Positions 58,806-61,913 of a DNA stretch of 64,000 nt are shown here, piece after piece. Position 1 is the first letter of the stretch. Every line of letters begins with the position of its first letter. The DNA is from Haladaptatus cibarius D43 (GTDB lineage: Archaea > Halobacteriota > Halobacteria > Halobacteriales > Haladaptataceae): the NCBI RefSeq assembly GCF_000710615.1, contig NZ_JDTH01000002.1, positions 798,082 to 862,081 of the forward strand, written 5' to 3'. Under the pieces are notes generated by a model. It made no database searches, was not told the DNA's origin, and saw only the letters and a list, made by a program, of their open reading frames with translations. Both the position numbers and the translations under genes were made by a program.

Positions 58806-59087
58806 ATGGCAGACCGCGTCCTGTCGGTGAACGCCTACACTACGTTCGACCTCATCGACGCCGTCGCCGAAGGTCATGGCTGGACAGAGGAGGCCGTGGG
58901 GGTTCTGAACGTCAAAACGCCCCGCGGCGAGGATGCACCCGACGAGGTACTGCTCCAACTCGAACTGGACAACACGGGGTTGGAACATCTGCCTGCTCAT
59001 GCCGACACGGTTACTCTGTCGCCGGAACAGGCACGGGAGTTGGCCGGGGAGTTTGAGCGGTGTGCTAATGTCGCAGAGAAAAAATAG
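58806..59087 (+). CDS. DUF6360 family protein
   Basis: 93 aa from the ATG at 58806, one base after the reductase stop. The segment LSVNAYTTFDLIDAVAEGHG and the C-terminal helix ADTVTLSPEQARELAGEFE match DUF6360, a haloarchaeal family often next to nirA. Role unknown, probably linked to nitrogen or sulfur reduction. Confidence 0.85.
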   Translation: MADRVLSVNAYTTFDLIDAVAEGHGWTEEAVGVLNVKTPRGEDAPDEVLLQLELDNTGLEHLPAHADTVTLSPEQARELAGEFERCANVAEKK

Positions 59088-59097
59088 CAACGGTCAG

Positions 59098-59964
59098 TTA
59101 TTGAACTTCTGCGCGACTGAACCGCCAATAGCCGATAGAGAGTGGAAATGCAACCCAGAGGAACAGAACGACAAACCCGAACACATTCTCGGGAACGTTC
59201 ATCGGGACTGTGATGGCAGCGTCTGCGTTCGGGTTTCCGGACTCTAGCAGTTCGAGCAGAATCCCACGACTTGCCTGATAGATCTTCACTGGATTGACCC
59301 GCTGGACATACAGATACCATGTCGGGCCATCAGCGAAGGCGATGGGCTTCAGGCCTCCCATCGACGCACCATCTGCGAACAGGTAGGCAAGAATCGGGAG
59401 TACGTTCTGTTGCCAAAAGAAATGCGTTATCGCGTACAAGCCGAACACACCACCGACTGCCTGGAATCGAGTCGTTGCCGCCGCGGAGATGCCGACACCG
59501 ATACCAACCCAAACCAACCCGTAAAGTAGCAAAAGTGCAGTGTGTGCCATTAATTGCGGTAGCGCAACCCCACTGTGTAGCACGATATTCAGCGCAACGA
59601 GAAGGAATACGGAAGTCAACAGCGCAATAGTAAACACTATCGAACGCCCGAGAAGCTTCCCGAACAGGATTTCACGCCTCGTCGTAGGGAGTCCGAGTAG
59701 AAATCGAATACTACCCGATTCTCGTTCACCGACAACTGCTTTGTACCCCGAAAGTAATGCGATAATCGGCATAAACCGGAAGAGGTTCAGTGGAATATTT
59801 TCGGCGACAACTCCTAACGATGCCGGTGGCGGTGCGTTCAGGTACATCGAGATTGTGGAAGAAACTGCCATCAGCACCAACGTCACGACTGCACCCCACA
59901 ACATTCGAGATCGGATAGAATCCATGAGCTCCTTCTTTGCAATTATTAGTGAGTGTGATTTCAT
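59098..59964 (-). CDS. ABC-2 type transporter permease
   Basis: 288 aa, six transmembrane helices. N-terminal IAKKELMDSIRSRMLWG and GERESGSIRFLLGLPTTR are classic ABC-2 permease features (NatB/YhaP group). It overlaps the ATPase gene stop by 4 nt. Divergent from the Tat-exported Cys-rich precursor: a candidate exporter or self-protection pump. Confidence 0.9.
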   Translation of the reverse strand: MKSHSLIIAKKELMDSIRSRMLWGAVVTLVLMAVSSTISMYLNAPPPASLGVVAENIPLNLFRFMPIIALLSGYKAVVGERESGSIRFLLGLPTTRREILFGKLLGRSIVFTIALLTSVFLLVALNIVLHSGVALPQLMAHTALLLLYGLVWVGIGVGISAAATTRFQAVGGVFGLYAITHFFWQQNVLPILAYLFADGASMGGLKPIAFADGPTWYLYVQRVNPVKIYQASRGILLELLESGNPNADAAITVPMNVPENVFGFVVLFLWVAFPLSIGYWRFSRAEVQ

Positions 59965-60884
59965 ATCGTGGCCTCCTGTGAGTGTTTTTCCGCGGTGTAT
60001 TCCACGAACAATTCCTCTAACGATGTTTGCTCGATTTCGACATTTCGGATAGTCGTTCCTGTTCGGTTCACTTCGTCCAGTACTTGGGTCTTTGCCTCTG
60101 GCGTTGAGTACGAAATTTGGAGTGTCGAATCGAAGACGAAAACGTCGCTGACGCCGTCTATTTCCGTGAGTCGATGAGACTCGGGAATCATATCGACCGA
60201 GAGAACAAGCGTTTCGCGTGTGCTGGCTTGTTCGTGCAGTGCCTCAATGGTGTCCACAGCAATGAGTTCGCCATGGTTCATAATACCGACACGGTCACAA
60301 ATCATCTTGACTTCTTGCATAACGTGGCTTGAAAAAATCACGGTTGCACCGCGCTCTTTTTCCTCTCGTATGATGCTTCGCATCTCCCGGATTCCGTGTG
60401 GGTCGAATCCAGACGATGGCTCATCTAAAATCAGTAGGTCTGGTTCGCCGACGAGGGCAATTCCGAGGCCGAGCCGTTGGCGCATTCCCTTCGAAAAATT
60501 TCCGACAGGGCGGTTTTCCTCGTTCACCAGTCCGATTCGCTCCAAAATGTCTTCTGCCGAGGTATCACAGGATTTCATCTGCACGACGAACTCTAAATGT
60601 TCGCGTGCCGTGAGTCGGTCATAAAGTCCGTAACCTTCAGGGAGGATTCCCATTCGCTCTCGTATTGTGCGCGCTTCCATCCACGGATTACGGCCGAGTA
60701 CTGATGCATCACCCGCAGTCGGTTGGAGGAAGTCTAAAAGCAGATTCAGCGTGGTTGATTTTCCCGCTCCGTTCGGACCAAGGAGTCCAAATATCTCGCC
60801 TTCTTTCACAGTAAGGTCAAGATTGTGAACCGCGGTCACCTCGCCGAATCGCTTTGTTAGGGCTCGCGTTTCGATAGCAGTCAT
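59961..60884 (-). CDS. ABC-2 type transporter ATPase
   Basis: 307 aa. Walker A GPNGAGKST, signature NFSKGMRQRLG, Walker B LLILDEPSSGFDP, and a C-terminal domain of the drug/peptide exporter ATPase type (CcmA/NatA-like). First gene of a two-gene operon; an AT-rich 250-bp gap with an inverted repeat separates it from the precursor gene. Confidence 0.93.
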   Translation of the reverse strand: MTAIETRALTKRFGEVTAVHNLDLTVKEGEIFGLLGPNGAGKSTTLNLLLDFLQPTAGDASVLGRNPWMEARTIRERMGILPEGYGLYDRLTAREHLEFVVQMKSCDTSAEDILERIGLVNEENRPVGNFSKGMRQRLGLGIALVGEPDLLILDEPSSGFDPHGIREMRSIIREEKERGATVIFSSHVMQEVKMICDRVGIMNHGELIAVDTIEALHEQASTRETLVLSVDMIPESHRLTEIDGVSDVFVFDSTLQISYSTPEAKTQVLDEVNRTGTTIRNVEIEQTSLEELFVEYTAEKHSQEATI

Positions 60885-61001
60885 ATATGTGTTCTAGTGT
60901 ACACAGAACGGTTCTGAACTATTCTTTTCAAATATATCGTATAACTATTTTCTAACATTTTATGTATATTCTTTTATTAATATATCGTAGTACTATTTAA
61001 A

Positions 61002-61018
61002 TGTCTAACTCTTAGACA
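61002..61018. promoter_or_regulatory. inverted repeat in the exporter/precursor intergenic region
   Basis: TGTCTAA CTC TTAGACA, perfect 7-bp arms. It lies upstream of a TATA-like TTTAAATA near 61050-61058. A second small palindrome CTACG AAA CGTAG is at 61063-61075. Possible operator for divergent control. Confidence 0.6.
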
Positions 61019-61134
61019 CTATTAATGTTCTCCTACGAATGTGTCCGTATTTAAATATGGCTCTACGAAACGTAGCGTCAAACACTATTCAGTGGGTTAA
61101 TTTTATTGTTCACAAATGTATTAATTTCTATTGT

Positions 61135-61788
61135 ATGGTAGAAGATGAAAATTCAGATGGTAGACTAATTCGAAACAGACGAAGTTTCCTGAAAAAAGCA
61201 GCAACAACCAGTGCATTAGGATTCACGGCTGTCGCTGGCAGTTCTGGGTCTGCCGTTGCAACAAGAAAGGGGCCGAGCGTCAAACAAAAGCCACTCCAGC
61301 GAGAAGCGATTCTCATTTTCAGAAGGTTTGGTAGCGACCTCCTCACACTACTTGCAGAGGAAGGGTTATTGGAAAGAGGTGCTGTCTTGGAACTCCCACT
61401 CGACAAACCTGCAGATTACGGCGCGGTCGCTTCCAAGTCTACCGAGGGAGTCAATTTCGCGGCATGGGACTCAGAACATGCTGATGAGTATCGTGCGGTA
61501 AAGCATCTCGCAGAGGGTATTCTTTCTGTTGCAATCCAACCGGCAGAAGATCATGCCTACGCATTTTATGAGCCATACGATACGGATAAAACGTATATCG
61601 CAAAAGCAGGTCACGGGATGGAAAACGTAGAGACATCAAGCCATAGTTGCAACGACGAATGCTACTGTGTAGACCAGTGCGGAAACTCCGTCTGGGCAGA
61701 CCGTTACTGCTGTGTTCTCTACCCATGTGAGACGGATACGTCGTGTTCATGGAACACATATTGTGACTGTTGTAACGGCTGTTCATAG
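61135..61788 (+). CDS. Tat-exported precursor with a C-terminal 12-cysteine module (halocin-like candidate)
   Basis: 217 aa from the ATG at 61135; an upstream ATG would only add residues ahead of the Tat motif. NRRSFLKK and a hydrophobic h-region ending SAVA (residues ~37-40) form a Tat signal. A middle domain of ~125 residues has no cysteine and no family I recognise. All 12 cysteines lie in the last 48 residues, at 172, 176, 178, 182, 192, 193, 198, 204, 210, 212, 213 and 216. This resembles the halocin C8 layout (Tat leader, cysteine-free domain, Cys-rich peptide), but the cysteine pattern differs. Coding DNA and flanks are AT-rich. The divergent ABC-2 exporter is the only neighbour that could secrete or protect. 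Confidence 0.85.
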   Translation: MVEDENSDGRLIRNRRSFLKKAATTSALGFTAVAGSSGSAVATRKGPSVKQKPLQREAILIFRRFGSDLLTLLAEEGLLERGAVLELPLDKPADYGAVASKSTEGVNFAAWDSEHADEYRAVKHLAEGILSVAIQPAEDHAYAFYEPYDTDKTYIAKAGHGMENVETSSHSCNDECYCVDQCGNSVWADRYCCVLYPCETDTSCSWNTYCDCCNGCS

Positions 61789-61913
61789 AGCGAAATTCGT
61801 TCATTTTTATCGTAGTCGAAGTTACAATGCCCATAACCACTCCGTAACACGCCATTTAACTGCTCTATAACTTTAGGTATGGGTGTTCTTTCCCTTGACG
61901 GGGATGATTCACT

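Follow-up and report, generated by a model that had tools for sequence, protein, structure and literature searches.

A family of haloarchaeal Tat-type precursors that probably yield cysteine-rich antimicrobial peptides, and its association with ABC-2 transporters in some subfamilies

Introduction

Sequences are known for very few antimicrobial peptides of archaea, and the chief survey of archaeal toxins, halocins included, is that of Makarova (mBio, 2019). Precursors of the halocin C8 family (ProC8, TIGR04449) are haloarchaeal proteins of the Tat type in which a middle domain is followed by a cysteine-rich C-terminal peptide. The halocin C8 precursor carries its immunity domain within itself (reviewed in PMC11509114). 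Halocin H4 is secreted as a precursor from which an extracellular halolysin frees the active fragment, HalC8 too yields a C-terminal fragment, and HmHapP releases its N-terminal part (PMC12893001); cysteine is nowhere mentioned in that paper on halocin H4 and HmHapP.

We analysed a stretch of 64,000 nucleotides of Haladaptatus cibarius D43 (NZ_JDTH01000002.1, positions 798,082 to 862,081, forward strand), called the window below. It contains a gene for a predicted secreted peptide precursor next to an ABC-2 gene pair. The precursor belongs to a family of ~100 relatives that probably make archaeal antimicrobial peptides.

Results and discussion

The locus is a cassette at 59066–61830, delimited by the points at which flank homology breaks in relatives. 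Its reverse strand encodes an ABC-2 permease of 288 aa with ~6 transmembrane segments (59098–59964; PF12679, E=3.3e-37) and an ABC-2 ATPase of the DrrA/BcrA type with 307 aa (59961–60884; PF00005, E=1.4e-30; PF13732, DrrA1-3_C), and the two genes overlap by four bases (ATGA). On the forward strand, beyond a divergent intergenic region (60885–61134), lies the gene for a Tat-type prepropeptide of 217 aa (61135–61788). The longest open reading frame starts at 61039 (249 aa), and the ATG at 61135 was chosen as the start that fits the alignment of homologues. A sequence-only reading of this DNA had proposed a Tat-type precursor with a cysteine-free middle facing a divergent ABC-2 pair in AT-rich DNA. 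We confirmed this arrangement, and GC content is 48.5% in the locus and 28% in the intergenic region versus 61% in the flank. Homologues with the same layout were found in dozens of genomes, which argues that the locus is more than a chance arrangement.

The divergent promoter region contains a 20-bp direct repeat (60931–60950 and 60979–60998) and a palindrome, GTTCT-N9-AGAAC (approximately 60891–60909), both possible regulator sites. The palindrome also occurs upstream of an ATPase gene in locus L124. We dropped it as a conserved operator candidate, as the closest relative lacks it.

The precursor begins with a signal region of the twin-arginine type (NRRSFLKKAATTSALGF...; 61135–61260, end approximate) with the motif NRRSFLKK. 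Its score against the NCBIfam Tat model TIGR01409 (16.2 bits) is just below the cut-off (16.7), so the Tat assignment is drawn from the motif and from related proteins: the RR motif is conserved across the family alignment, and for several relatives Tat models give matches at E<=0.1. The middle (pro-) domain of ~125 aa (61261–61647), conserved in an alignment whose HMM found 103 ORFs, is free of cysteine. All 12 cysteines fall within residues 172–217, in a predicted mature peptide of ~46 aa (61648–61785) with the spacing C-3-C-1-C-3-C-9-CC-4-C-5-C-5-C-1-CC-2-C. This peptide is hydrophilic and acidic (GRAVY −1.26, net charge −6), with a cysteine density of 22%. Against NCBIfam at E<=1, the precursor matched Tat-signal models and nothing else. 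Structure prediction from a three-sequence alignment gave a mean pLDDT of 34.9 and no predicted fold; searches of solved structures returned no match for the peptide and, for the middle-domain profile, only matches at E above 0.07.

By BLAST, relatives of the precursor were located at 19 places; these are spread over 13 of 391 Halobacteria genomes, and one is a second copy in the genome of the window. We then used a profile of the middle domain, built without the signal and without the cysteines. It matched 47 of the 391 Halobacteria genomes and 24 of 86 genera; within the taxonomic family of the window, 20 of 28 genomes were matched, at up to seven places each, and the window's own genome had five matches. 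Since this query was free of cysteine, the tails constitute an independent test of the architecture. Nearly all matches terminate in a cysteine-rich tail, and the small number that do not are frameshifted or weak. The order of Tat signal, cysteine-free domain and cysteine-rich tail thus recurs in ~100 ORFs, with C-termini of 23–86 aa and 6–22 cysteines, and the expectation of a new peptide-precursor locus, traceable by a separate search with its middle domain, was borne out. For scale, 39 of these 391 genomes have a halocin C8 domain.

Signal-peptide models apart, we found no convincing match for the window protein or for family members in Pfam, NCBIfam or PHROGs. The precursor family is new to these three databases, and some members may figure in the earlier survey of archaeal toxins. 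Its distribution is patchy, with multi-copy genomes, and searches of plasmids, phages and viral contigs returned no relatives of the precursor. Tandem members occur in the window's own genome (L130, contig 1, approximately 104984–106114; 16 and 12 cysteines, no ABC-2 pair), and locus L148 (5170–7499) has a tandem of three members whose cysteine frameworks differ.

The cysteines are confined to the tail throughout the family (1090 of 4996 peptide residues, compared with 5 of 13075 residues in the middle domain). In the mature part, 98 of 102 members have an even number of cysteines and four an odd one, a tally that takes in a frameshifted pair. After clustering of the peptides, all 31 clusters had an even count, whereas among control proteins from the neighbourhood with 6–23 cysteines only 42 of 91 did. 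Given this even count, set against a control that is about half even, it is very probable that every cysteine of the peptide is disulfide-bonded. Spacing is diverse, with 83 different patterns among 100 members. Defensins and conotoxins likewise combine a conserved pro-region with very diverse cysteine frameworks; the present family differs in being archaeal and in its Tat-type signal, and we saw no sequence relation to them.

An extracellular metal-binding module, metallothionein-like or zinc-binding, served by a metal-related ABC pump, would also account for the very high cysteine density of 22%. An even cysteine number is expected if all cysteines are paired outside the cell and is not predicted by metal binding, however, and together with the variety of spacings (83 of 100) it fits disulfides better. 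Neither solved structures nor family models gave a match, and we regard a metal-binding role as very improbable.

Between orthologues the peptide is mostly conserved at least as well as the middle domain, and dN/dS estimates are mostly below 0.4. We therefore rejected rapid diversifying selection on the peptide; its diversity resides between subfamilies. Purifying selection that is usually at least as strong as on the middle domain points to the peptide as the likely functional product, or payload. The same observation suits a secreted signalling or developmental peptide that would share export and cleavage with a halocin, be sensed by kin and have the ABC-2 pair as its sensor or as a means of uptake or clearance. 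Some members, in several subfamilies, hold one chromosomal site across species, which is less typical of bacteriocins, and several different peptides are encoded per genome; both are in keeping with signalling. On the other hand, we observed no recurrent linkage to receptor or two-component genes, 6–22 cysteines in 23–86 aa would be unusual for a pheromone, and at one locus a single ABC-2 pair is common to a family member and a halocin-C8-domain precursor. We consider a signalling role unlikely.

That locus (L216, genome G073, contig 6; 2290–3024, 5202–6994 and 7947–8708) has an ABC-2 pair with a family member to one side and, to the other, a precursor that scores above the TIGR04449 cut-off, and is a physical link between two precursor classes. 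The resemblance to halocin C8 extends to an even number of cysteines (21 of 22 halocin C8 sequences, mostly with 10) and to prevalence (39 versus 47 of 391 genomes), besides the precursor type and the shared pump in G073. The halocin C8 peptide, however, is longer (71 versus 48 aa), poorer in cysteine (14% versus 22%) and hydrophobic (median GRAVY +0.64 versus −1.17). The NCBIfam scan found no TIGR04449 domain in the window precursor, and HHalign of ~100 family middle domains against ~20 of the C8 type gave a probability of 0.1%, indicating no homology. The earlier view that the cysteine module is unlike HalC8 thus held. Without a C8 domain, without middle-domain homology and with a hydrophilic rather than a hydrophobic tail, the window precursor, as far as its sequence indicates, works like the halocin C8 system yet is not a member of it. 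A pump common to all halocin C8 loci was also considered and rejected: a clear permease homologue lies within ~6 kb in only two of 20 such loci, and few of the 20 have an ATPase of the window type.

We next consider the ABC-2 pair. In a neighbourhood survey starting from the precursors, such a pair was absent near most of the ~100 members. We then ranked permease homologues across ~410 genomes (391 from the class and 28 from the family, with 10 common to both sets). Those next after the window's own were in genomes G408 (60% identity), G328 (45%), G073 (44%) and G321 (46%). The first three adjoin family members, and that in G321 adjoins a Tat-type precursor with a hydrophobic, cysteine-containing tail. 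Further top homologues paired with precursors were found in G350, G230, G162, G338 and on contig 1 of G408. Other homologues are unpaired, among them two more pairs in the window's own genome. By a rough hand estimate, the chance that a random gene lies less than 3 kb from a family member is well under 0.1%. In a permease tree, precursor pairing appears on several separate branches.

Part of this paired set had been reached through the ABC genes, and we therefore used the precursor on contig 1 of G408 (L231) as a query blind to them. It located eight loci in 341 genomes, and an ABC-2 ATPase and permease were close by in all eight. One of these, in G123, is divergent as in the window, with 8 bp between the ORFs; at two other G123 loci the ATPase gene follows the precursor by 15–16 bp on the same strand. 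The suggestion that precursor and ABC-2 pair would be found together elsewhere was thus upheld, and we conclude that the pair is a true partner of the precursor. In G185 (L218, contig 11) an ABC-2 locus of the G350 type is missing the adjoining precursor gene, so that precursor presence varies among close relatives.

The sequence-only reading took the pair for an exporter and the middle domain for a possible immunity protein. The strict pairing in some subfamilies (8/8) and the immunity domain within the halocin C8 precursor (PMC11509114) are compatible with this. However, a Tat-type signal is already present on the precursor and most relatives are unpaired, so that an ABC exporter is probably unneeded; the ATPase lacks a C39 peptidase domain by Pfam, and there is no homology between the middle domain and its counterpart in HalC8 precursors. 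Export by the pair is accordingly doubtful, and we judge the combined exporter and immunity reading quite unlikely. A bacteriocin exporter with a C39-type peptidase was rejected as a candidate in view of the missing domain and of a leader that is of the twin-arginine and not the double-glycine type. PADLOC matches at the locus proved to be generic ATPase matches.

The ATPase resembles instead those of the DrrA (TIGR01188; E=5e-72, 242.7 bits, cut-off 312.45) and lantibiotic-protection models (TIGR03740; E=2e-59, 201.1 bits, cut-off 309.75). The pair shares with self-protection ABC-2 systems of the DrrAB/BcrAB/LanFE type an ATPase with a DrrA C-terminal domain and a separate permease of ~6 transmembrane segments; it differs in falling below both cut-offs and in having a Tat-type peptide precursor as partner. 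Pumps of this type protect antibiotic producers, and for this reason we read the pair as self-protection.

The surroundings of the cassette bear on its origin. In two relatives of the Haladaptatus group, homology stops at 59065 and restarts at 61831, with ~56–66 bp between, and in three further species both flanking genes are less than 1 kb apart compared with 3.6 kb in the window. In total, five related species have both flanks in place and no cassette. The extra stretch (59066–61830) holds exactly three genes, those for precursor, ATPase and permease. We saw neither a target duplication nor a transposase at the cassette. The nearest relative, G408, has the same cassette among different neighbours, again with a drop in GC (54% versus 68%). 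Acquisition of the locus as a horizontally transferred cassette, supported by the empty sites and the low GC, forms part of our best explanation.

Small disulfide-rich folds are often inhibitors. A surface-bound structural or protease-inhibitor mini-protein that is not a weapon would fit with the Hvo_1808-type surface proteins that adjoin members of some subfamilies, but it leaves the matched ABC-2 pair and the joint insertion unexplained, and we hold it to be improbable.

On balance we favour, with some reserve, a halocin-like peptide that is exported by Tat and activated by proteolysis, with an ABC-2 pump that serves to protect the producer and is not the exporter of the peptide. According to this proposal the precursor, given its motif, would cross the membrane by Tat, and its C-terminal ~46 residues would fold into a compact peptide with six disulfides. 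The middle domain would hold the peptide folded and inactive until an extracellular protease frees it, and may add immunity. Cleavage outside the cell is suggested by analogy with halocin H4, likened here by its activation route through halolysin, and the window's genome has many subtilase genes. The freed peptide would then act against competing haloarchaea, presumably killing them, while the ABC-2 pair may clear it off the producer's own membrane as a peptide-matched immunity pump. Several findings weigh against a weapon: most of the ~100 members are unpaired with ABC-2 genes, selection on the peptide among orthologues is purifying and not diversifying, and the peptide is hydrophilic and acidic, unlike the hydrophobic HalC8, with a pLDDT of 35.

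The wider proposal is that of a widespread new class of archaeal disulfide-rich antimicrobial peptides, about as frequent as halocin C8, with one cysteine-free pro-domain, dozens of frameworks and subfamily-specific ABC-2 immunity pumps in compact cassettes; we put its chances at about even. With ~100 precursors now searchable, the conserved domain can be used to find more. Both the rule of even cysteine numbers and the pairing with pumps predict directly what mass spectrometry and knock-outs should show. The pump partner makes self-protection testable genetically, and thanks to the empty sites, carrier and non-carrier species form natural pairs in which killing can be assayed.

Other genes also adjoin family members. 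At six loci (L144, L153, L157, L164, L173 and L148) the neighbour is a DDxxD-like protein resembling the isoprenoid-synthase fold, of which the one copy tested had no Pfam match. A 270-aa protein with two transmembrane segments and a conserved CxPC motif, for which no family match was found, follows precursor genes in two genomes (L148, 7698–8513; L161, 6014–6826) and is a possible thiol-disulfide partner. At L108, L115, L128, L151 and L163, a membrane-anchored Hvo_1808-related protein is encoded within ~40 bp of the precursor; some copies have an HExxH-like motif, and the protein is a possible processing or immunity partner.
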